This document shows, in pieces, positions 4,326 to 49,619 of a DNA stretch of 64,000 nucleotides. Source of the DNA: an uncultured Cohaesibacter sp. (lineage in GTDB: Bacteria; Pseudomonadota; Alphaproteobacteria; Rhizobiales; Cohaesibacteraceae); the NCBI RefSeq assembly GCF_963678225.1, contig NZ_OY782763.1, forward strand, positions 682,001 to 746,000, written 5' to 3'. The notes under the pieces were generated by a model. It did no database searches. It saw nothing but the letters and a program-made list of their open reading frames with translations, and had not been told where the DNA came from. Made by a program: the position numbers and the translations under genes. Numbering within the stretch: position 1 is the first letter of the stretch; each line of letters starts with the position of its first letter.

Positions 4326-6257
4326 ATGCTGAGCACCGAAAATTCAACCGTCAAAGATTTATCAAATGCACTGGCATCGTGGAGCCATGGATGTTCTGCC
4401 ATCTCCAAGAAAACGAAAATTACCTTGTCGGGATTAGACCACAGCAACACTGACAAAACGATTGACGATCTGTTCTTTGCAAATTTGCCAGGACATGTGT
4501 CACTATCGGAGAAGGCATCGAACGAACTGCAGGCCTATGAGGTGGTGGATTCCGGGACATTGCGCAACTCCTTTTACATCGCTCCTTTCCTGTCCCATAC
4601 CGATATTCAGCGCTGCTTTTTGCGGATCAAGGTCACTGGGCGCTGCGTCGTACAGCTTAGTAAATCCAGAGTGGGTGAAAAGGTGGGCGTCATATGCGAA
4701 AAGCAACTGTCGCCTCCCAAGAATCATGATGTAAACACCCCCTATATCGCCGAAGTCCCATTTGTTCTCGGCAAGGAAGTTGCGCGCAGCGCACGTCTAT
4801 TCTGGCGGCTCCGCGCCCTTGAAGACGGCGTTCAAATTCACGAGGTGTCGTGGTGCGCTTCTGCCCCCAAAACCGTCGAAGGAAAAATGCTTGTTGCAAT
4901 GCGGACATTCGGCCGCACGGCAGACATCATCAACCTGCTGGAAAACTTCGCCACGCATGCCGAGACGAATGAGCATTATGACCAGATGCTGAAAAACACA
5001 TTCTTCTTCGTTCTTGATACAACCAACGGGGTTGATGAAACCTCATACGAACAGCTCTCACAATATGACAATCTCAACTACCAAGTTGTAAGAGGCGCCA
5101 ATCTGGGCGGCGGCGGCAACATGAGTCAGCTCATGAGACTGGTCAATGAAGCGAGCGTGGATAGTGGGGTTGAACCTCAGGAATTTCTCCTGCTCGATGA
5201 CGACTTGAGCATTTCTCTTGAAGCCTTGTATCGCCATTGGGCCGCTACATTGTTCCGTACAGATACGACAATCTTCACCTTGCCGGTTTTCATGAAAACA
5301 GAACCGCGCAGGATGTGGGAAGATGGGGCCTTCTGGGGGCGCTTCATTGATAGCAAGCACGGTTCGGATCGCACCCATGTTGCCCCGCGCCTTCTGCGCC
5401 ACGGGCTGGTTTTCAATATGTTTGACAATCTGGATTCTCTGGCTGAACCCAACTATCCCGAATATTGCACCTTCATCTTCTTCAGCTTGCCCTGGAAGCT
5501 CTTTCAAAGCATAGGCTACCCGTTGGCAATCTTCCTGCGGGGCGACGATATCGAGTATAGCTTGCGCAGCTATGCGATGACCGGTTCGAAAATCATGTCG
5601 AACCCCAATCTCCTAGCCTGGCATGAACCGGCCCATTCATATGCGCAGGAATATATGTCCATCTGCCACGGCGTCATCATCAATATGTGCTATGAGCAGG
5701 AAAAGCCGAACGCACTGGTCGAATTCTTCCTCAATCAGGCACTGCGTCATGCCTCCATCAGGGATATCAACGCCCTCAAGCTCTATGTGGAAATCCTGCG
5801 TGACCTGATGTCAAAATCCGTTTTTCTGGAAAATGGGTTTGCCACGCACTACATCGAAAAACTCAAATTCTTTAAGGATTTTGATGCTGGCTTTCGCCAG
5901 CTCACCCATGAAATCATCAGCGATTTGCGCGCCTCTCACAGCGACCAGATGGGCGCTCTGGCAGAGCATCCATTTCTCTATCCCAACATCGAGAACAGAC
6001 CCAATATCCGAACGGTAATTCTGCATAACCCACACAGCAAAAGCTACTTTATCTACCCGTTTGATGACATCGAGCGGACGAAGGAAGTATCGCAGATACT
6101 GTCTGAGCTCTATGCGCTGATCAATGAATTCTCCAATCGGTATGAAGAGCTGCGCCTGCACTATATCAGCCGCGTCAATCGATCCAGCACCGCTGAATTT
6201 TGGGACAAGGAATTGTCGATGCATGACACCCCTGCCACGCTCGCCCACAACAATTGA
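4326..6257 (+). CDS. GlfT2-like galactofuranosyltransferase (GT-A fold)
   Basis: 643 residues. The N-terminal ~185 residues look like a beta-sandwich. Then comes a GT-A domain with features of the GlfT2 family: RTFGRTADIINLL (about residue 192), a glycine-rich loop RGANLGGGGNMSQ, the metal-binding acidic motif LLLDDDLSI (about residue 290), and a WHEP motif (about residue 432) at the position of the GlfT2 catalytic/acceptor WH. A helical C-terminal region follows. GlfT2 enzymes polymerise galactofuranose from UDP-Galf onto a glycan chain. No signal peptide or membrane segment is seen, so it should be cytoplasmic or peripheral. It heads a + strand run of polysaccharide-type genes. The sugar specificity is inferred, not shown. 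Confidence 0.75.
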   Translation: MLSTENSTVKDLSNALASWSHGCSAISKKTKITLSGLDHSNTDKTIDDLFFANLPGHVSLSEKASNELQAYEVVDSGTLRNSFYIAPFLSHTDIQRCFLRIKVTGRCVVQLSKSRVGEKVGVICEKQLSPPKNHDVNTPYIAEVPFVLGKEVARSARLFWRLRALEDGVQIHEVSWCASAPKTVEGKMLVAMRTFGRTADIINLLENFATHAETNEHYDQMLKNTFFFVLDTTNGVDETSYEQLSQYDNLNYQVVRGANLGGGGNMSQLMRLVNEASVDSGVEPQEFLLLDDDLSISLEALYRHWAATLFRTDTTIFTLPVFMKTEPRRMWEDGAFWGRFIDSKHGSDRTHVAPRLLRHGLVFNMFDNLDSLAEPNYPEYCTFIFFSLPWKLFQSIGYPLAIFLRGDDIEYSLRSYAMTGSKIMSNPNLLAWHEPAHSYAQEYMSICHGVIINMCYEQEKPNALVEFFLNQALRHASIRDINALKLYVEILRDLMSKSVFLENGFATHYIEKLKFFKDFDAGFRQLTHEIISDLRASHSDQMGALAEHPFLYPNIENRPNIRTVILHNPHSKSYFIYPFDDIERTKEVSQILSELYALINEFSNRYEELRLHYISRVNRSSTAEFWDKELSMHDTPATLAHNN

Positions 6258-6271
6258 GGAGATAGACTGCA

Positions 6272-6820
6272 ATGCTCAATATTGGCGTGAAGAAAATCTT
6301 CAAACGAAACACCGCCCCCAATGTCAAGCTCATCCTTCCCGGCATGCAGCCAGATGTCATTGCGCATGATGCATTCATTTCCATCGGACTGGGCTGCCAA
6401 AATCCGGACAATTACATTGATGGCGTGGTAGCGGAGCAATCTCTCACCATCGTTCAAAAAGAAAATATCGCCCCCTTCATGACAGGGCTGATCTGGAGAT
6501 TGCGCTGGTTGGGAGACGGAACCTGGGCGTTGCTCAACCAAGGGCTTGAGAATGCCGCGCTGACCAATCGCGCACCCGATGTCGCTTTGGGCAGAATCTT
6601 CAGCAACTGGTCAACCAAGGATACCAGTTGGTTCATCTATTATGACGCAGAAAGCAGCGGCTACCTTCTGCGCAGCAAGCTGGGTGGATGGCTGACAATG
6701 GACGTTTCCGGAGCAGGCCTACGGCTAAACAAATTCAACGCCGAAAACATCGCCAGCCAATTTATCACCATCCAACATACCGTCGATGGCGTAGGGTCGT
6801 CCCTCAGCCCCGCTCACTAG
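6272..6820 (+). CDS. Unknown protein downstream of the GlfT2-like gene
   Basis: 182 residues, 14 bp after the glycosyltransferase stop, so probably one operon. I do not recognise a family. The sequence alternates short hydrophobic strands with turns (WRLRWLGDGTWALLNQGLENAAL-like units split by NWSTKDTSWFIYYD and GYLLRSKLGGWLTMD). This resembles a beta-trefoil or other carbohydrate-binding beta fold, but that is a guess from pattern only. There is no signal peptide and no membrane helix. Confidence 0.6.
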   Translation: MLNIGVKKIFKRNTAPNVKLILPGMQPDVIAHDAFISIGLGCQNPDNYIDGVVAEQSLTIVQKENIAPFMTGLIWRLRWLGDGTWALLNQGLENAALTNRAPDVALGRIFSNWSTKDTSWFIYYDAESSGYLLRSKLGGWLTMDVSGAGLRLNKFNAENIASQFITIQHTVDGVGSSLSPAH

Positions 6821-6866
6821 ACCGCAAAACAATCATTGACCGATATTTCGAGGCGCATGAAAGCAA

Positions 6867-7457
6867 ATGCAAGTCACGTTTAACGGGAATCTTTTTCCTG
6901 AAAGGTTCAATTGCCAGATTCTCTATCCCACTGAAATTGCGAAATATTTTTTGAAAGAAAAGCAATATGATGATGTCGAAGAGATTTGCTACTACGCACT
7001 CCTCGGAAATATGGCACACCCTCAACTTCGTCGCGAGCTATTCAACTACGCATTTTGTGCAAGCATTTTTGGAAAAGGAGAGATAAGCAGCTACTTAAAA
7101 AGAAGCACAGAAATGGTAGCACAATATCATTCGTCTGAAATTATCAATGGAATCCTAGACAACAACATCGAGCTAAATACAATCCCTGCTAAAGAAATTA
7201 CAAACCTGTCATTCGATTATCTGAAGATTTTTGGCGATAGGATCGGAAGCGGATTTTTGAAAGAAAATAATAAAATAATAAATATACAAAGCGAAAATGA
7301 AAATAATTGGCAATACAAAGACGGAATACTGTTTTTCATCAACAAAAAAGATGAAATATCAAGCATTTACCAAGAAAAAATATTAATAAATGAAAAAATT
7401 TATTATGCAGGATTTTTCATCAAAACATATGTTTGCCACATTTTAAAGAAGAAATAG
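6867..7457 (+). CDS. Unknown AT-rich protein
   Basis: 196 residues with strongly AT-rich codon use (long Lys/Asn/Ile/Glu runs after about residue 130), unlike the genes before it. The first half is helical (EIAKYFLKEKQYDDVEEICYYALLG) and could be a short TPR-like helical pair. The second half is beta-rich. Family unknown. The stop codon is followed one base later by the start of the SGNH-type gene, so the two are cotranscribed. Base composition suggests recent transfer. Confidence 0.6.
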   Translation: MQVTFNGNLFPERFNCQILYPTEIAKYFLKEKQYDDVEEICYYALLGNMAHPQLRRELFNYAFCASIFGKGEISSYLKRSTEMVAQYHSSEIINGILDNNIELNTIPAKEITNLSFDYLKIFGDRIGSGFLKENNKIINIQSENENNWQYKDGILFFINKKDEISSIYQEKILINEKIYYAGFFIKTYVCHILKKK

Positions 7458-41768: not shown

Positions 41769-44606
41769 CTAGCCCCCGTCAAAGCTGGTGGGTACGGGAG
41801 GTTGGTAGCGATCGGGCACCTCGACCGTGATGTTGAGATAGGTAATCACCTTGTTGATCTTCTCTTTCTTCAGCCCCGGCACCTTCGAGCAGATATGCCT
41901 GCCAAAATAGGCATTGGTTGATTTGTGCTTCTCGGGGTTTTGCGACTGCCAATCGCAATAACGCGCATAGAAGTCCGCGCCGGTGATGTAGCAAGAAGGC
42001 GAGCCATCCTCGTTTGGCTCTTCCAATGTGACGCATTGATCGGCAAAGCTCTGCAGCGGGTCCATCTCATCGCGGTAATCAGACGTGAACTCCGAAATGC
42101 GCTGTGGCACGCGTAGGCCCTCGGCGTAATAGATCGCCAGCCCCTCCAAGAGCCAGTTGAGAAGGCCCGACCGCTCCTTGGCAAATTCGGCCATGACCTC
42201 CTCGAAGGTGCGCCGCTTGTCATCCGGGATGGTCACATCCCACGGAACGATCACAACGCGCCGCCAGATGCCGAAGTCATTACCGGTGATGAATGGCTTG
42301 TCGTTGCCCGACATGATGGCCTTGAAGCGCGGTATGAGGTCAAAGAAGCCCTCATTGAGCCGCCGCACCCGCCTTGGCGCGCCACCCGTCAGGGCCTTGA
42401 TCAGGTTTTCCTTGATCCCCTCACCGCGCGGCAGCTCTTCCACACGCACCATGCGCTGGCCGACCAGGTCGGCGAGATCCGGCGTGGCCTGATCGCCCCG
42501 CGCCTGATGTTTGCCGGTGACCGATTCCGGATTGAGCTGGCCCGCATATGGCCCCATCATTTCGGCGATGGCCTCTGTCAGGGTCGATTTGCCGTTCGAG
42601 CCGGAACCATAGAAAAAGGCCAACTTCTGCTCGCCAGTGAGCCCTGTAAGGCAATAGGCGAAATAGACCTGCAAAAAGCGTTGTATCTCAAGGTCTGGCT
42701 GAAAATAGTCTAGAAACTCCCTGAGTTTCTGCGACTTGGCCTTGGGATCATAGGTGACCGGCGCACATTTTGAGATCTTCATGGCCCGATCATGGGGCAC
42801 GAACTCCACCTGCAGACGTTTGCGCGGCGGACCATCAGAGGGGTCATCCTCATCATCGACGCGCCGAAATAGCAAGGTGCCATTGAGGCAATTAAACGCC
42901 TCCAGATCGGCGTCCAGCTCTTCCGGAGCCACGGTAATGTGCGGTTCGGCCTGCTTGATCATGCCATTGATCTTGCCGTTATTGCCCGAGCTGACCGCAT
43001 ATTTGCGACGGTTATTCTTACGCGCCTCAAAGGCCTTTTGCGCAACAGCCGCATCAGCAATCAGCGCACTGGCGGCCTTGCGCTCTTCCTCGCTCATGTC
43101 GTCGGTGACCTGCAGGCCAGAAGCCGCCTCGATCGCCGCCCACTCTTTGCGGCTCATCTGGATATGCTCTGTTTCAAGCTCAATCAGCTTGGCGGTTTTT
43201 TGAGCGTAAATGGTGATTTGCTCTTCCCCACCCGTCAGATCCCAATGAGAGCCAACCCAGCGGAAAACACCATGCTCGCGCACCACCATCACCTCATCTC
43301 CAAAATGTATGATCAAGCGCTGTGCATTGCCGGTGTCATTCTGATCGAGGGTCGCACAGTGAGCGACTTTCTGAGGCAAGGCGGCTTGCCCGCCGTTGGC
43401 ATGCGCCAAGTCATCACCCTGTGATGACTGAGAGCTAACGCCCCCGCTTATTTTGCCGTTTTCAGGCGCTTGGTCCCCAGTTGCGCCATCATCGAAACCA
43501 CCCTCATAATCATCAGGGCTGGCCGGTGGTGGCGCGTCTGGCCCGCCATGGGGCGGCGGGCTATCCCTGCGCGTGTGGCCCTGATATCGGGCGGCCTTTT
43601 GCCTTGCCTCTTCTGCGATTTCCTTGAGGCGCAATTGAACATCACCACAGGCACCCTTGCCAGCTTCCAGCCCGCGCGTGATTTTGGCATCGCGTTCTCG
43701 CGCGCCATCCGTTGCAGTCAGTCCGCAGGCGTCGGACGCCATTTCAAGCCCATGCCGCACCTCTCCCTCATCGAGCGCACCGGCACCTACCAGCTTGCCG
43801 AGGCTGTAGGCGTGGGCATTGAGCGCAGATCCACGCCCGCCCGTTCCCGTCCGCGCCATTTCAGCACAAGCATTATCAAGCGCCCCTCTGGCATAGCGCC
43901 GGATCGCCTTGTCGCCCGCATCTTCCGACCATGCCAGATTATGGCTCGGCGCAGGCATGACCGGCTTCACAGCCTCTTTCTTGGCAATAGCATCCACCAG
44001 ACTTTGCGGCATCACAGGCGGCTCAAAATCCGCCCCATCGCGCCATGTGTAGGTGTTACCGTTGGTTAGCCTTGAAGGCGGCAGGATGACATAGCCATTG
44101 TCGCAGCGCGCATCGACCCGCCCGACCTTTTTGACTTCACCATGCTCATCGACCATATCGCGCTTGCATAGTTTACGGTTGCCCAGCTCGACGCCTTCCG
44201 CACGCCTCAGCCAGATATGCCAGCCACCGCTCTGGGTGATGACGATAGGTGCATCAGGCAGAGGCTCGCCGAGATCTTTTTCCAGCTCACTGACAACCCA
44301 CTCGCAAGCCTCTCCTTCTGCAGGATCCACATCGACCACCAGCATTCCCTTGGAGGCTGGCGGACAGCCGATCAGCGCATCCGGCCATTTTTCCCACCAA
44401 AAGCGGATCTGAGCCTCGTCTGTTGTGGCTTCATGGAATCCGCCTTGGCCTCTTACGTCCGAGGTGTTGAGGGGGCGTTTTGCCTTGCGCTTACTCTTCG
44501 GCAATGCGTCCTCGTCCGGCAAGCCGGGATGACAAGGGAAAACAGCATAGCCCCGCCGTGCATAGGCCAGAGCATAATCAAGCATGGTTTTGCGTTGGAT
44601 GTTCAT
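41769..44606 (-). CDS. Phage primase-polymerase/helicase (P4/D5 type)
   Basis: 945 residues. Residues ~1-230 form an AEP prim-pol: GYAVFPCHPG, WPDALIGCPPASKGMLVVDV with catalytic DVDPAEG, and VITQSGGWHIWLRR. A Ser/Pro/Asp-rich linker follows, then a D5_N domain and an SF3 helicase with Walker A GSGSNGKSTLTE (about residue 672) and Walker-B/sensor text VRVEELPRGEGIKEN and MSGNDKPFITGNDFGIWRRV. It would prime and unwind at the phage origin. Its stop faces the repeat-rich region at 41.4-41.8 kb. Confidence 0.93.
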   Translation of the reverse strand: MNIQRKTMLDYALAYARRGYAVFPCHPGLPDEDALPKSKRKAKRPLNTSDVRGQGGFHEATTDEAQIRFWWEKWPDALIGCPPASKGMLVVDVDPAEGEACEWVVSELEKDLGEPLPDAPIVITQSGGWHIWLRRAEGVELGNRKLCKRDMVDEHGEVKKVGRVDARCDNGYVILPPSRLTNGNTYTWRDGADFEPPVMPQSLVDAIAKKEAVKPVMPAPSHNLAWSEDAGDKAIRRYARGALDNACAEMARTGTGGRGSALNAHAYSLGKLVGAGALDEGEVRHGLEMASDACGLTATDGARERDAKITRGLEAGKGACGDVQLRLKEIAEEARQKAARYQGHTRRDSPPPHGGPDAPPPASPDDYEGGFDDGATGDQAPENGKISGGVSSQSSQGDDLAHANGGQAALPQKVAHCATLDQNDTGNAQRLIIHFGDEVMVVREHGVFRWVGSHWDLTGGEEQITIYAQKTAKLIELETEHIQMSRKEWAAIEAASGLQVTDDMSEEERKAASALIADAAVAQKAFEARKNNRRKYAVSSGNNGKINGMIKQAEPHITVAPEELDADLEAFNCLNGTLLFRRVDDEDDPSDGPPRKRLQVEFVPHDRAMKISKCAPVTYDPKAKSQKLREFLDYFQPDLEIQRFLQVYFAYCLTGLTGEQKLAFFYGSGSNGKSTLTEAIAEMMGPYAGQLNPESVTGKHQARGDQATPDLADLVGQRMVRVEELPRGEGIKENLIKALTGGAPRRVRRLNEGFFDLIPRFKAIMSGNDKPFITGNDFGIWRRVVIVPWDVTIPDDKRRTFEEVMAEFAKERSGLLNWLLEGLAIYYAEGLRVPQRISEFTSDYRDEMDPLQSFADQCVTLEEPNEDGSPSCYITGADFYARYCDWQSQNPEKHKSTNAYFGRHICSKVPGLKKEKINKVITYLNITVEVPDRYQPPVPTSFDGG

Positions 44607-44692
44607 GCTGCTCTCCTCGCCAAAGAAGCCATTGTGCTGTTACGAATGGCGGTGATAGAAAAAGGAGTGCTCAACCGGAGGGAGAACGAAAA

Positions 44693-45331
44693 TTGAGTTT
44701 TAGGCTCAAATGGACACTTGCGGACACCGCAGCCATCGCTATTGGGCTTTTGCTCGGTGCGGGAATCACCGGAGGCTGGCTGTACGGCTTTCAGACAGAA
44801 TTTATAAATTTGATCAGTATGATCGCAGCTATCGGCGCGACATATTTCGCATTCAAATCCGCGGCTATAGCATCCACTCAATTCAGGCTGTTTATTCTCG
44901 AACGTGAAATCCAAGAAGTAGACCTTGTACTTGACGGTCTGTCCAAAGCGATTAGTTACTCTAAGTCCTCTTTTAGCAACCCAGAATTCACATTGACTGA
45001 AGGAGGCAACAAAGAGGCGTGCTATCGCATTCAGAATGTTCTGAGGATCGGAGAATACATTGACAAAGGTTTTCTTTACGCCTTTTACAACTACCCTCGC
45101 GATATGCAGGTAAGAAATGAGAAAGCCTGCAAAACTCTCCCTATTATCGAGAGATACTGCAGCCAATTGCTTGGACACGATTGGAAGAACTGTCTTCACA
45201 CTCAAACAGACCTGCGCAAGGTTTTGGCTGAAGCAGAACCTGAGGTTAGAGACTATATAAACAACCAGAAAACCCGATTTCTTAACAAACGCATAGAGCT
45301 CAACGAAAAAAGAGAAAGTCTGCTGTACTAA
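44693..45331 (+). CDS. Two-TM membrane moron protein (possible exclusion/Abi)
   Basis: 212 residues from a TTG at 44693, chosen because GGAGGGAG lies 8 nt upstream and no in-frame ATG is better. Two N-terminal TM helices (TAAIAIGLLLGAGITGGWLY and FINLISMIAAIGATYFAF) are followed by a cytoplasmic helical domain of about 150 residues (STQFRLFILEREIQEVDLVL; NLGHDWKNC-like cysteines later). The layout recalls membrane-anchored putative phage abortive-infection proteins, but I see no diagnostic motif. It is on the + strand within the leftward early operon, between the primase and the pentapeptide cassette. Confidence 0.65.
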   Translation: MSFRLKWTLADTAAIAIGLLLGAGITGGWLYGFQTEFINLISMIAAIGATYFAFKSAAIASTQFRLFILEREIQEVDLVLDGLSKAISYSKSSFSNPEFTLTEGGNKEACYRIQNVLRIGEYIDKGFLYAFYNYPRDMQVRNEKACKTLPIIERYCSQLLGHDWKNCLHTQTDLRKVLAEAEPEVRDYINNQKTRFLNKRIELNEKRESLLY

Positions 45332-45339
45332 AGCAACCA

Positions 45340-45469
45340 ATAAAAACACCCCTCCCTGCTCCGGTTCATCTTTGACTGGCAGTGGCAGGCGCTCGGCCAT
45401 GCACCAATGCTCGAAATGAGCGTTTCCATCAAGCGTCGGAGGCGCAGTTGAATAATCAAGCTTAAGCAT
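45340..45469 (-). pseudogene. 5' part of a small early gene cut by the membrane-protein cassette
   Basis: From the ATG at 45469 the frame reads MLKLDYSTAPPTLDGNAHFE then HWCMAERLPLPVKDEPEQGG, phage-like text, before it runs into the antisense of the + gene. The open frame continues antisense to 44603, where its stop overlaps the primase ATG (ATGA), so the last ~25 codons (… RNSTMASLARRAA) may be the original 3' end. Interpreted as a small gene split by insertion; could instead be an intact antisense-overlapping gene. Confidence 0.4.
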
Positions 45470-45570
45470 CGCTCGGCCTCACGTAGCTTTTGCGAAGATC
45501 GAAAAGCTCTTCCGCAATGTAAAAGGGATCGTTTCCAAGCCAGCAAGCGAGTACGGCGCTGCTATTTGTG
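45462..45570 (-). pseudogene. 3' part of a small early gene cut by the pentapeptide cassette
   Basis: The frame ending at 45462 encodes AVLACWLGNDPFYIAEELFD LRKSYVRPSDA, which looks like real coding text. It overlaps the next gene's ATG by 8 bp. Its probable 5' part lies on the other side of the cassette at 47650-47759. Confidence 0.4.
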
Positions 45571-45665
45571 GGAATTGTCAAATGATAACAGTTGACGCCC
45601 CTGCCACCAGTTGTCGAAACTGAGCAGGAATGCAATCGAAGATATTCAAAGGCAAGGCTGGCGAG

Positions 45666-47648
45666 ATGAGCGACGAAGATTTTAAAGGCACCCCTGAAGA
45701 CCTCGAGGCGATTAAAAAGGGTAGTGAATACTGGAATACCTACGTAAGTCGTAAATTTGAAAAAGAAAAATATTGGACAGCAGATCTCACAGGGGCAGAG
45801 CTGACAAAAGCAAAGCTCTCGAACGCCATTCTCATAGCGGCAAAGCTCAAAAACGCCAATCTCTCGAGGGCGAAACTCGTAGCGGCAAGACTCATAAAAG
45901 CCAATCTCTCGTACGCAAACCTCTCGGGTGCCGATCTCACAAAAGCTAATCTCTCGGGTGCTGATCTCACAGAAGCCAATCTCTCGGGTGCCGATCTCAT
46001 AGAAGCCAATCTCTCGGGGGCCAATCTCTCGGGCGCTATTCTCTCGGGAGCCTGCCTCAATGGCGCTAACTTCCAAGGCGCCAATCTCAAAGGAGCGGCT
46101 CTCGAAAAAGCAGATGTTCAAGGCACAGACTTCAGTCGAGCTGATTTGGTAGGGATTGACTTTCACGGCATAAATATCAAAAGAGCTAGCTTTCAAAACG
46201 CAACCCTTGTTGGCGCTGAATTTAGTGGCTGGGATCTTGTAAACATGGATTTCAGTGGCGCAAATTTGAAACGAAGCAACTTCGAACGAGCAATGCTGAA
46301 TGGAGCACAGTTCAGAAGTGCAAACCTCAATGACTCTAAACTCGCTTTTGCAAACCTCACGGAAGCAAATTTCAACAATGCTCAACTTGAGGGAGCGGAT
46401 CTTAGGTGCGCTATATTTGATAGAATAGAATTTGGAGGAGCGTTTCTCGATGGAGCTAATCTCAACGACGCGGATCTCAGAGGAGTTTACTTTCGAGGAG
46501 CAAGCCTCCATCAAACAAAATTCAAGAATGCGAATCTTTCGGGGGCAGATCTCATTGGGGCGCGACTTTCGGAAGCAAACTTTGAAGAAGCCATTCTTGA
46601 TGATGCTCAGTTTGTTCGAGCCGATCTTTTTCGAATCAACTTTAAAAAAACCCAACTCGAACGAGCTAATTTTGAAGGCGCCAATCTTTGCGAAGCTAAT
46701 TTCGAAGGAGCTAAACTCAATAAAGCAAACTTCGAACAGGCAAATCTTACAAGAACAAATCTCGATAAGACCGACTTGGACGGAGCTTCGCTTCATAAAG
46801 CAAATCTCAGCCAAGCACACTTTAAACAGCACCATCTTAAGACGACATTCGGTCAGCCAATTCTTGATAATACTCAACTCGTTGATGACGAAAATGGGGT
46901 TTCTGAGTTCGATGAAGATTATGATAAACACATCGGTTCTGAGAGAACTGATCCAGCAATGGAACCTGCCCCTCAACAAAATACGCGGCATTCGACACAG
47001 GTCGAAGCATCTCCTCTCATCTTTAAACCTCAAACGTTGCTGACAATCACCCCAGTAACGCTCAACACACAAGGCGAGAAACAGATCAATTTTGAACTGC
47101 AGGCCCTTGCCATCCCCTTCCGGCGCCAAAACAATTGTCTTCCAGAATTGTTTGACTTGGCGATCAATTCCTTTTTCGATGATGATAACATCACAATCAT
47201 CAACGAGTTCCGAGGAGAAGAGTTTCCTGATCTTATAAATCACATGGTACGCAATTGGGCGGGCCGCAATGTGTTTCCGGCACAGCAAGCTATTCTCAAA
47301 GCAATAGACGAGCAGAACGCTATAGTTTACTTCGGAAGCATTGAATCTTTGAAAACAAAGAGGTTCAAAAGCGTTCAAAAAATAGTTCTTTTTACAAGCA
47401 AACTTGGCCCCAAACAAACATTGGTAGCAGCCTTCGTCGCAGGCTGTAGTATCGCATTCGTGTGTGCAGGCCCATCTGTAGGAACAAGTATTGGGACGGT
47501 CAGCGCAGCAACTGCTGAAGCTGGCGCTGAGATCATTCGCGCAGTAGGGCATTATTGGGCGATGAAAATTCAATATGAGAGCGACAAGATTAAAGCTAGC
47601 GCAACGGCCGAAATCAAAGCAAAAAATGACAGTAATATCGAGCAATGA
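45666..47648 (+). CDS. Pentapeptide-repeat membrane protein (moron)
   Basis: 660 residues from the ATG at 45666 (MSDEDFKGTPEDLEAIKKGS); an ATG at 45630 is in frame. Residues ~35-390 are pentapeptide repeats of the A(D/N)LxxA type (for example ANLSGADLTKANLSGADLTE), a right-handed quadrilateral beta-helix. After an acidic linker, residues ~450-580 form a globular domain (INFELQALAIPFRRQNNCLP, LAINSFFDDDNITIINEFRG, then QKIVLFTSKL). A hydrophobic segment (TLVAAFVAGCSIAFVCAGPS) and a charged tail follow. The repeat may bind protein or DNA surfaces and the C-terminus may insert in the membrane. Direction, AT-rich composition and site mark it as an inserted, lysogen-expressed gene. Confidence 0.8.
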   Translation: MSDEDFKGTPEDLEAIKKGSEYWNTYVSRKFEKEKYWTADLTGAELTKAKLSNAILIAAKLKNANLSRAKLVAARLIKANLSYANLSGADLTKANLSGADLTEANLSGADLIEANLSGANLSGAILSGACLNGANFQGANLKGAALEKADVQGTDFSRADLVGIDFHGINIKRASFQNATLVGAEFSGWDLVNMDFSGANLKRSNFERAMLNGAQFRSANLNDSKLAFANLTEANFNNAQLEGADLRCAIFDRIEFGGAFLDGANLNDADLRGVYFRGASLHQTKFKNANLSGADLIGARLSEANFEEAILDDAQFVRADLFRINFKKTQLERANFEGANLCEANFEGAKLNKANFEQANLTRTNLDKTDLDGASLHKANLSQAHFKQHHLKTTFGQPILDNTQLVDDENGVSEFDEDYDKHIGSERTDPAMEPAPQQNTRHSTQVEASPLIFKPQTLLTITPVTLNTQGEKQINFELQALAIPFRRQNNCLPELFDLAINSFFDDDNITIINEFRGEEFPDLINHMVRNWAGRNVFPAQQAILKAIDEQNAIVYFGSIESLKTKRFKSVQKIVLFTSKLGPKQTLVAAFVAGCSIAFVCAGPSVGTSIGTVSAATAEAGAEIIRAVGHYWAMKIQYESDKIKASATAEIKAKNDSNIEQ

Positions 47649-47649
47649 T

Positions 47650-47759
47650 GTCCCTCTCAAATGCCAGAAGTGCTCTAGTTCGCCCCCGACCTTAAGTATC
47701 GTTTCCCAAAAATCTGGTGCTATCTTCGGCGGCGTCCGATTTGCGTACTTGCCCTTCAT
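47650..47759 (-). pseudogene. 5' part of a small early gene cut by the pentapeptide cassette
   Basis: From the ATG at 47759, which overlaps the upstream gene's stop as ATGA, the frame reads MKGKYANRTPPKIAPDFWET then ILKVGGELEHFWHLRGTSLL before entering antisense pentapeptide sequence. Translational coupling and coding-like text suggest the start of a real gene whose end is now at 45462-45570. Confidence 0.45.
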
Positions 47760-47971
47760 GCCGCATTCACTTCTTTGTCTACGCCAACGGCAGCGAGAAG
47801 CTTGTTTGCCGAGTCCAGAGCTTCAGTCGGAGACAGCATCCGCGTGCCGGGGTTGGAAACCTGCATTGGCCCATTGACGATAAACAGCCGATTGCCGCTG
47901 ACTGGGTCTGCCCAAGGGCGCACTTCGATTGGTGGGCGGAACGACGCCACCCCTGATGGTCGCTTTTTCAT
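47756..47971 (-). CDS. Small early phage protein, unknown
   Basis: 71 residues: MKKRPSGVASFRPPIEVRPW, then GNRLFIVNGPMQVSNPGTRM and SPTEALDSANKLLAAVGVDK. It begins 5 bp after the stop of the upstream HTH gene and its stop overlaps the next start by ATGA, so it belongs to the tightly packed leftward early operon. No family recognised. Confidence 0.65.
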   Translation of the reverse strand: MKKRPSGVASFRPPIEVRPWADPVSGNRLFIVNGPMQVSNPGTRMLSPTEALDSANKLLAAVGVDKEVNAA

Positions 47972-47976
47972 TAGGG

Positions 47977-48792
47977 TTACTCCGCCTCAATCAGACGGCG
48001 CGTTGGGCGCCGCTGTTCAAGGGCTTCAGCGTGCATATTCTCAACCTCGGTCAGAGAGACACCCTTGGCTTTGGCATGCGCCTTAATCATCGAGGTCACG
48101 GTCGCTTTATCGCACGCGATCCAACCCTTGATCTGGGCTTTCAGGCAGCCCTTTGAGCAATAGAGCTTGAAAGCGATGGATTTGCGCGCCTGATCACCGA
48201 CATTGTGCAAGCCAATGCCTTTCATGATGGCCCATTCCGTCGTGCCATATTCTCCGGCAGCAGCGCGCACCATAGCCGCAATCTGCCGTGGCATTTCTGG
48301 CATGTCCGGTGTGGACACTGCTGATTTACCTTTCCATTCGCGACACAAGCTCTGAGCCGTGAAATAAGAACAGCAGAGCTGCTCGGCGATTTGTTCGTAT
48401 GTCATGGCCCAACGGAAGCGCATGGCGTGAGCCACCATCTTGCGTGCTTGGCGGCCATTCTTGGCCCGCATGAACTGGCTGAGTGCGATATCATGATAAT
48501 CGCAAGCTTCGCGCACCAGCCGCTGCAGAGACAGATCCAGTCTCCTGAACCAGATCTCGCACTCATCCGTTGGCTTTTCGCGGCTTTGCCGCCGCTCCAT
48601 CTCAATGAATGACGGCACCCGCATGACACACCGACCGGCTTGCAGCTTTTCACGCTGCATCTCAGCTTGAATATCTTCAATTTCCTCGCGGATGCCCTTG
48701 AGGCCGGTATAGTTGAGCGCGATGACCTTGACGCTATTGCCGATCCGCAGCCTGTGGCGAATATTTGCCCGTTCCTTTTCACTCAAAAGCAT
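47977..48792 (-). CDS. HTH protein, DnaA-C/replication-regulator-like
   Basis: 271 residues. The N-terminal ~90 residues are helical and charged (YTGLKGIREEIEDIQAEMQR). Residues ~115-155 hold a helix-turn-helix, AHAMRFRWAMTYEQIAEQLC then CSYFTAQSLCREW, similar to DnaA domain IV or sigma-region-4 type HTHs of alphaproteobacterial phages. The C-terminal half has three cysteines (LYCSKGCLKAQIKGWIACD). Probably a DNA-binding early regulator or replication initiator. Adjacent to the CII-like gene with no gap. Confidence 0.6.
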   Translation of the reverse strand: MLLSEKERANIRHRLRIGNSVKVIALNYTGLKGIREEIEDIQAEMQREKLQAGRCVMRVPSFIEMERRQSREKPTDECEIWFRRLDLSLQRLVREACDYHDIALSQFMRAKNGRQARKMVAHAMRFRWAMTYEQIAEQLCCSYFTAQSLCREWKGKSAVSTPDMPEMPRQIAAMVRAAAGEYGTTEWAIMKGIGLHNVGDQARKSIAFKLYCSKGCLKAQIKGWIACDKATVTSMIKAHAKAKGVSLTEVENMHAEALEQRRPTRRLIEAE

Positions 48793-49272
48793 CTACTCGC
48801 CCTCCTCGATTTGCTTGATCGCCATGTCCATGCCAACGCCGACCTGAAGCAGGTCTGCGATCTCTTTGCGCAAACAGAGTTGCCGCGCTTCGTCTTGTGA
48901 TATGCAGCCATCATCGGCCAATGCCTGCCCGATCTTCTGGACGACATCGCCCATTTCCTTGAGCATCGCAGCGAGCTGCTGATTGATATCGCCCTCCCAA
49001 CGCCCCTCAGGCAACTTGACCAGCTCATAGCCCAGCTCCCGCACCAGAGCGCGGCTAACCACCGGCTCGCCGATATCCTTTTCAACATCAGCAACCACAT
49101 CCACCGGCATCCAGTCACAACCCTGAGGCTGGCCATAGCGAGCCATCTGTGCAGTACTAACGCGGGTAACCCCTGCAGCACATTCCACCCCGCCTGCCTT
49201 TTTTGTCGCCTCACGACAGCGACCGCGAATGCGCAGGTAAAAATCAGCGCTATATTGGCGAGCACAGGTCAT
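48793..49272 (-). CDS. CII-like phage regulatory protein
   Basis: 159 residues from the ATG at 49272, which overlaps the preceding stop (TCATGA on the + strand). Text such as ECAAGVTRVSTAQMARYGQP and CDWMPVDVVADVEKDIGEPV, then LAAMLKEMGDVVQKIGQALADD, fits the phage regulatory CII / CP76 family: an N-terminal HTH and a C-terminal helical oligomerisation region. It would activate lysogeny promoters. Position in the leftward early operon after the Cro-like gene matches the usual place of cII relative to cro. Confidence 0.65.
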   Translation of the reverse strand: MTCARQYSADFYLRIRGRCREATKKAGGVECAAGVTRVSTAQMARYGQPQGCDWMPVDVVADVEKDIGEPVVSRALVRELGYELVKLPEGRWEGDINQQLAAMLKEMGDVVQKIGQALADDGCISQDEARQLCLRKEIADLLQVGVGMDMAIKQIEEGE

Positions 49273-49619
49273 GAGAAACTTTCCTCCCCTTTCTCGCTGA
49301 CAACAGCCGACCAGTCTTGCAGACTGGTCGAGCAAACGAACCGGGAGCAAATGTCATGGAAACGAAGCCTTTCCCGCTCAGTCATGCAACCCAAAAGGCG
49401 CTCGGAAAATTCAGCAAAAGAAAGCGCAGGCAAATCCGCGCCAGCCTTGTCAGCATCGAGCGCGCGCAGCGCATCGGGGCGCGGCTTGCCAACAAAAGGT
49501 CGGGCACTGCCAAGGGAGGGTACGGCAGGCCCAACACTAGGCCAGACGCGTTTGGGGTTACGAAGGGAAACCGCACCGCGTCTGGCAGATAAATGCAATG
49601 AGAGGACAGGCGTATGCAT
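49269..49619 (-). CDS. Early operon protein, unknown
   Basis: 116 residues from the ATG at 49619 (GAGG 5 nt upstream). The first half is Pro/Arg/Ser-rich and low complexity; the second half (LPALSFAEFSERLLGCMTER, ERLRFHDICSRFVC) is helical. It overlaps the CII-like start by 4 bp and follows the Cro-like gene by 7 bp. Function unknown. Confidence 0.6.
   Translation of the reverse strand: MHTPVLSLHLSARRGAVSLRNPKRVWPSVGPAVPSLGSARPFVGKPRPDALRALDADKAGADLPALSFAEFSERLLGCMTERERLRFHDICSRFVCSTSLQDWSAVVSEKGEESFS

Follow-up and report, generated by a model that had tools for sequence, protein, structure and literature searches.

Prophage genes that face the lytic genes around them have been described before. 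According to the accessible parts of the papers cited here, the Tha/Ith defence of Staphylococcus aureus prophages is on in lysogeny and is turned off on induction through an opposite-strand overlap (PMC11087260), accessory (moron) loci antisense to lytic genes are documented in prophages (PMC7067206), and in phage Fc02 a reverse-strand gene of the lytic operon overlaps a forward-strand gene beside an exclusion gene (PMC9936078). The same parts report a gene with pentapeptide repeats, orf232, in the early left operon of phage L (PMC8022706), and translational coupling through ATGA/TGATG overlaps that was strict in 13 of the 14 pairs tested (PMC6728339). Here we analyse a 64,000-nucleotide stretch of DNA from an uncultured Cohaesibacter sp. 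(contig NZ_OY782763.1, positions 682,001 to 746,000; hereafter the window), in which two cargo cassettes lie opposite a leftward early operon, next to its phage primase-helicase gene. The operon-side reading frame runs through both cassettes without a stop codon. We consider it likely that prophage cargo of this kind has been inserted backwards at translationally coupled junctions of early lytic operons, and that it is kept see-through so that primase expression survives.

The leftward operon consists of a CII-like gene, a gene of 271 amino acids (aa), a 71-aa gene and the primase-helicase gene, in this order, and is interrupted by two + strand genes. A first-pass annotation of the window had placed these two genes opposite a tightly packed operon, and both are confirmed. 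Cassette 1 (45666-47648, + strand) encodes a 660-aa pentapeptide-repeat protein, and cassette 2 (44693-45331, + strand, with a TTG start preceded by GGAGGGAG) a 212-aa protein that is probably a helical-hairpin membrane protein. The property overlooked at first is that the whole operon-side frame is open across both cassettes and overlaps the neighbours at both ends, over 765 codons (45462-47759, - strand) and 288 codons (44603-45469, - strand), respectively. The 765-codon frame starts within the end of the 71-aa gene, in a 4-base overlap of start and stop (ATGA), and its own stop overlaps the next ATG, the start of a small Cys/His gene remnant, by 8 bases. The 288-codon frame starts as this remnant and ends with an ATGA on the primase start. 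The ATGA overlaps originally listed at 47756/47759 and 44603/44606 therefore stand, and the third, at 45462/45469, is instead the 8-base overlap ATGCTTAA.

For genes in register with the operon frame, an antisense stop corresponds to a TTA, CTA or TCA codon on the sense strand. The pentapeptide gene has none in 660 codons, and the cassette 2 gene has none either. In a first set of 12 cassette genes, selected for position or similarity ahead of any count of antisense stops (two each from the window and from loci L018 and L016, one from L019 and five from L047), 11 lacked in-register antisense stops; the twelfth, L016 gene a, is taken up below. In 25 cassette genes from 12 loci we counted 3 such codons among 8,451. 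Synonymous codon usage in 44 control genes, with a rate of 1.6% per codon over 19,258 codons, predicts 164, and Fisher tests give P-values of 1e-32 for leucine and 2e-23 for serine codons. All 3 lie at L116 7990-7999, in the first nine codons of an open reading frame (ORF) whose start was probably called too early. The other two antisense registers of the same 25 genes contain 603 and 278 stops. Left out of this count were L016 (gene b, without stops, and gene a), L123 (14 stops), L126 (1 stop) and other homologues from the same search. The partner genes in L116, L117 and L119-L121 were included as sharers of a frame, and the L124 pentapeptide genes came from the pentapeptide search and were retained for being stop-free; neither group is independent evidence.

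The open register is that of the operon frame and not register 0 as such. The operon frame crosses L016 gene a and the genes for a 272-aa protein in L118 and L122 in register 2, which is stop-free in all three, whereas their register 0 contains 4, 10 and 12 stops, respectively. Coupled frames of 780 to 1,036 codons, at a G+C content of 0.47-0.50, were found in L116-L122 and L124, and several span two cargo genes in a single frame (1,036 codons in L124, 936 in L117, 924 in L121, 909 in L120 and 895 in L116); one L047 frame has 897 codons. On rechecking 19 frames we found inner stops in none, an overlap with the upstream stop (1-8 bases) in 17, with the downstream start in 18 and with both in 16. 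We also scanned 795,190 bases in 55 loci, each 8 kb or longer, for frames with overlaps at both ends and a codon score favouring the sense strand; this blind scan returned 28 frames, two of which are L073 duplicates of L047. Four known frames escaped it (that of window cassette 2, one in L047 and the main ones of L117 and L119), and some of its matches, such as those in L046 and L048, may be false.

Genes chosen by homology behaved similarly. Similarity to the L019 protein identified nine places, including L019 itself, in the 20 family genomes, and eight of these have no in-register antisense stop, the ninth being L123. A profile of nine proteins with two predicted transmembrane segments (two-TM) matched 13 places in 10 of 397 genomes, 12 of them without in-register antisense stops; nine of the 13 are the profile's own rows, of which L019 and L047 had originally been picked for their position and the seven others for resembling the L019 protein. 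Three loci fetched after the rule was formed (L136, L137, L138) are all stop-free, with their neighbours overlapped at both ends. The thirteenth match is again L123, where the surrounding genes look chromosomal by eye. Thirteen pentapeptide and two-TM homologues classed as lying outside phage operons, a class for which the neighbouring genes were viewed in L123, L126, L127, L129 and L130, together have 76 stops in 4,334 codons (1.75%), and two of them (L127, L129) are stop-free. The loci of all 13 were covered by the blind scan, which printed no coupled frame for them and which had missed four known frames. The S24-type repressor gene of the window, for comparison, has 10 antisense stops in 282 codons.

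Comparison with relatives bears on how the cassettes came to lie where they do. In genome G008 (L020) the site is empty: a 271-aa-like gene, a 71-aa-like gene, a 101-aa Cys/His gene and primase follow each other, the last two junctions being ATGA, and there is no extra small gene between the last three. G004 (L017) has the empty arrangement as well, with the Cys/His gene overlapping primase by ATGA. The DNA of G005 (L019) is 87-90% identical to that of G004 and carries in addition a reverse-strand membrane-protein gene, which falls cleanly between a 95-aa gene and the Cys/His gene and leaves both intact. In G015 (L018) another reverse-strand pair, again a membrane-protein cassette, lies just upstream of the Cys/His gene, replacing the 95-aa gene. 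Cassette 1 of the window is situated between the 71-aa gene (47756-47971, - strand; relatives in L014, L016 and L020) and an internally deleted Cys/His gene, and cassette 2 between the natural C-terminus of the latter and the primase gene (Prim-Pol, D5_N; 41769-44606, - strand), so that primase lies downstream of both. As in the extra-DNA test for a moron cassette, neighbours that are adjacent in G008 and G004 are separated by cargo in G005, G015 and the window. The cassette genes also differ in G+C content (0.45 and 0.44) from primase (0.58) and from the operon genes in general (0.55-0.58 for primase, the 71-aa gene, the 271-aa gene at 47977-48792 and the CII-like gene at 48793-49350). The last two, both on the - strand, lie upstream in the operon; the 271-aa gene has relatives in L014, L015, L016 and L020, and the CII-like activator gene matches PF06892 and phrog_101. 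Insertion of opposite-strand cargo beside primase is well supported by these comparisons. Inverted repeats bound neither the window cassettes nor the L019 cassette, and an invertible cassette was rejected on this ground; a single imperfect 18-base pair lies inside the pentapeptide gene.

The reading that we favour, reversed cargo kept transparent to the operon, can be put as a sequence of steps. Operon RNA that is left untranslated invites Rho-dependent termination. Selection would act on the cargo twice: its sense strand would encode pentapeptide-repeat and small helical membrane proteins made in the lysogen, and its antisense strand would stay stop-free in the register of the operon frame, with stop and start overlaps on the neighbours. 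On induction, the ATGA would serve ribosomes leaving the 71-aa gene as a restart point; they would then pass through the antisense frames of 765 and 288 codons, making a throw-away polypeptide, and restart once more on primase. Such unbroken translation would prevent Rho-dependent polarity and loss of mRNA over ~3 kb of otherwise untranslated RNA, and the same antisense traffic may silence the cargo once the phage goes lytic. The cargo itself probably has a role in superinfection exclusion or defence. Of these elements, the insertion sites, the reversed orientation, the purging of stops, the overlaps and the conservation of sense against drift of antisense are observed directly, and ribosome passage along the antisense frames, relief of polarity, lysogenic expression, silencing and the role of the cargo are inferred.

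Several observations weigh against this reading. Coupling is incomplete in places: an upstream overlap was not detected in L119, the L122 frame only abuts its upstream gene, and one L047 frame lacks a recognised overlap on its downstream side. L016 and L047 were noticed partly through their long operon-strand ORFs and are not wholly independent of the property counted. The two-TM protein of the window resembles the profile family only distantly (12-20% identity to the 11 others); the profile does not detect it, and close relatives of it were not found. Scans for consensus promoters and terminators at the cassettes gave results at chance level, so that the cargo can only be presumed to have its own expression; host promoters may differ from the consensus. 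In L126, one of the 13 outside homologues, a pentapeptide gene with two transmembrane segments (2TM-pentapeptide; 6170-7429) has 1 antisense stop in 419 codons despite an ATGA-linked operon-side start, and is either an imperfect cassette, possibly decaying or without essential genes behind it, or a counter-example. A class-wide search for 2TM-pentapeptide proteins matched 22 of 289 genomes and yielded 30 loci, 28 of them with an automatically called ORF (including L157, which is the window itself with the wrong strand called, and L155 and L171, which are one gene). Four of these 28 are stop-free, all at a G+C content of at least 0.62; overlaps with the neighbours at both ends were seen for none of the four, and the two viewed further (L146, L151) showed no surrounding phage operon. 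In Labrenzia phage vB_LagS-V1, six of 16 genes other than its cassette gene are likewise stop-free, and the stop rate in V1 genes is low (0.65% per codon). Because such class-wide GC-rich homologues and other V1 genes are stop-free too, single GC-rich cases prove nothing.

Among the alternatives, overprinting survives best, and we still regard it as unlikely. It would make the antisense frames functional genes, coding for instance for inhibitors by which the cargo is turned off on induction, as Tha is by Ith; the full-length open frames with their start and stop overlaps would fit, and the accessible text on that system supplies a precedent, a prophage defence gene overlapped by the antisense gene of an inhibitor (PMC11087260). 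However, antisense identity between homologous cassettes is close to the level that sense identity passively yields in the primase and CII controls, and at most slightly higher. In comparisons with L116, for example, it is 0.23-0.28 where the sense identity is 0.33-0.37; primase controls give 0.18-0.26 where it is 0.36-0.39. In three close register-0 pairs (2TM-pentapeptide, lipoprotein and HicB), 68 of the 90 differing codons are sense-synonymous, and 60 of these 68 changes alter the antisense residue. The 272-aa pair (47 of 54 differing codons sense-synonymous, 38 of 55 antisense-synonymous) is uninformative on antisense drift because wobble positions coincide in its operon and sense frames. 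The same openness is, moreover, shared by unrelated cargo, and conservation of both products, the test for overlapping (overprinted) genes, was not found. In these comparisons the cargo is conserved, the antisense product drifts and its openness is kept. The first-pass annotation had allowed that the antisense frames might prove to be the conserved, real proteins; their residues drift. Codon log-odds point to the sense strand in 11 of the 12 cassette genes tested (the three-transmembrane-segment (3TM) gene of L047 being the exception), but taken alone they hardly distinguish it from in-register antisense, and the argument therefore relies on stop codons, homology and drift.

Very unlikely, in our view, is the original proposal that each cassette split a small dispensable gene of ~70 residues and is flanked by its halves. 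Codon usage does, weakly, give both pieces of the first supposed gene the top rank in their common frame, but they have no convincing relative in the 20 family genomes (best foreign E-values 0.004 and 0.145), and nothing in the loci compared significantly matches the piece at 44606-44692. This latter piece, taken at first for the C-terminal part of a gene, forms the leader of cassette 2, with a likely ribosome site on the + strand, and is open on the - strand. The supposed other half of the second gene is the Cys/His remnant (45332-45469, - strand; E-value 5.6e-5 to L015). Aligned with seven relatives (L014-L020) in which the gene is fuller, it has kept the start and the tail and lost the middle with the second Cys pair. 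It ends on the C-terminus of its relatives (EQGGVF) and keeps their own natural end; cassette 2 therefore sits after the gene. The uninterrupted fused gene that should exist in relatives at the primase locus is absent from the cassette-free loci L020 and L017, and the G005 insertion spares both neighbours. What had been taken for gene halves is sequence of the operon frame, which is open right through each cassette. The split-gene model was rejected on the cassette-free relatives, the lack of homologues of the pieces and the natural Cys/His end.

Chance or base composition is more improbable still. Long in-register antisense frames could be common wherever TTA, CTA and TCA are rare, with nothing selected, as the stop-free GC-rich homologues and the low rate in the V1 genes might suggest. 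Most cassette genes, however, have a G+C content of only 0.43-0.51, and ATA, GTA, CCA, ACA, GCA, GGA, AGA, CGA and CAA are all commoner in the cassettes than in the controls, against the near absence of the three stop-generating codons. The open register is that of the operon frame, including the genes crossed in register 2, and homologues classed outside phage operons carry stops at a rate of 1.75%. Codon bias was rejected as contradicted by stop counts, register and outside homologues. The idea that the + strand genes are artefacts, and that the true genes are the longer, neighbour-coupled frames of the operon strand, is hardly credible and was rejected on the Pfam pentapeptide repeats and protein-level relatives of the sense strand, its favoured codon score and its synonymous excess.

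The description of the cassette 1 product as a pentapeptide-repeat membrane protein holds, given a PF00805 match (E-value 6e-90, 294.6 bits against a cut-off of 20.2) and one strong hydrophobic segment near the C-terminus (residues 587-605). Its C-terminal part aligns with the L047 pentapeptide protein (E-value 2e-14 in a two-sequence comparison, 25% identity) and with the pentapeptide protein of viral contig L073. No relatives of this C-terminus were found in phages or plasmids; one was found in G334, with translations identical to those of L073. A profile of the window and G334 C-termini gave, beyond its own rows, four weak partial matches (E-values 1e-4 to 8e-3) in the 397 order genomes. 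For the cassette 2 protein the label 'two-TM' is partly upheld: a structure model of low confidence (predicted local distance difference test, pLDDT, 60) shows a helical hairpin, but a single segment passes the Kyte-Doolittle cut-off. The two structure models obtained, with pLDDT values of 60 and 42, are too weak for a library comparison. No relatives of this protein were detected in phages, plasmids or the other 396 of the 397 order genomes, nor in genome and viral contigs by scans that reach close relatives only. Against PADLOC-DB 2.0.0 the pentapeptide protein had no match, the two-TM protein had one at an E-value of 0.016, and the best among ten relatives was 0.003, none of which is convincing. 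Upstream of the pentapeptide gene, at 45575-45588, lies a perfect dyad, TTGTCAAATGATAA, that resembles a repressor operator but is not above chance (1 match, 0.58 expected); no second copy is present in the window.

Unrelated types of cargo share the same antisense openness. Besides the pentapeptide and two-TM genes, the frames cross DUF6161-like partners (PF19658; below the Pfam cut-off in four, no match in L119). We also noted HicB-like antitoxin genes opposite overlapping operon-side open frames (L117:3951-4349, L121:3268-3666 and L052:4701-5114). L118 and L122 share a cassette in which the gene for the 272-aa protein (L118:6893-7711, L122:5204-6022; BRCT-like by eye, no Pfam match) adjoins a lipoprotein-like gene, beside different two-TM genes. 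Three reverse cassettes occur within a single early operon of the L073/L047 prophage (IMGVR_UViG_2841887973, 46.4 kb). In vB_LagS-V1, an isolated phage, a reverse VasI-domain gene (PF11319; L074:12447-13064) directly follows the CII-like gene and has operon-side ATGA overlaps; this case is weak by itself.

The counts show genes constrained by selection on their non-coding side, so strongly that three codons are almost gone from thousands of positions, and this constraint is tied to the passage of an operon frame. If the reason proposed above is correct, these cassettes are a natural test of how strictly phage operons need unbroken translation; they would explain how reverse-oriented cargo is carried without harm to phage replication genes, and offer a simple signature for mining prophages for exclusion or defence modules not yet known. 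More tentatively, and as a proposition we rate somewhat below even, a general design rule may apply: cargo of temperate phages that lies against a coupled lytic operon must be transparent whatever it encodes, antisense traffic switches it off on induction, and the signature points to undescribed exclusion or defence genes. Under such a rule, a stop-free coupled antisense frame would be a sequence-only marker usable in any genome.

In the open-access literature searched, by titles and abstract openings and with most subscription papers outside its reach, we found no account of phage cargo traversed by coupled antisense frames that have been purged of stops, and no phage-related function for pentapeptide-repeat (PF00805) or DUF6161 (PF19658) proteins, domains that the cassette proteins contain (DUF6161 below the cut-off). 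Phage L orf232 differs from cassette 1 in being named, in the accessible text, as a gene of its operon and not as reverse cargo (PMC8022706). The ATGA/TGATG motifs that join the antisense frames to the operon genes are the same as in described coupling, which concerns, as far as the accessible text goes, co-directed gene pairs (PMC6728339) and not frames on the back of cargo genes. In Fc02 two small genes are involved, one of them also excluding phages according to the part available (PMC9936078), whereas here multi-gene cassettes occur with up to 1,036 coupled antisense codons. Like moron loci, the cassettes are extra genes between phage genes, opposite to lytic transcription and of differing base composition; the accessible text on those loci does not mention a stop-free coupled antisense frame (PMC7067206), and transcription in the lysogen is presumed for the window cargo. 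Tha/Ith resembles the window and its relatives in that the cargo is oriented against the lytic operon. There, however, a small antisense product inhibits the defence protein, while here the whole cargo is reversed within the lytic operon, and the antisense frame, whose product is not conserved, spans all of it and overlaps the neighbouring genes.

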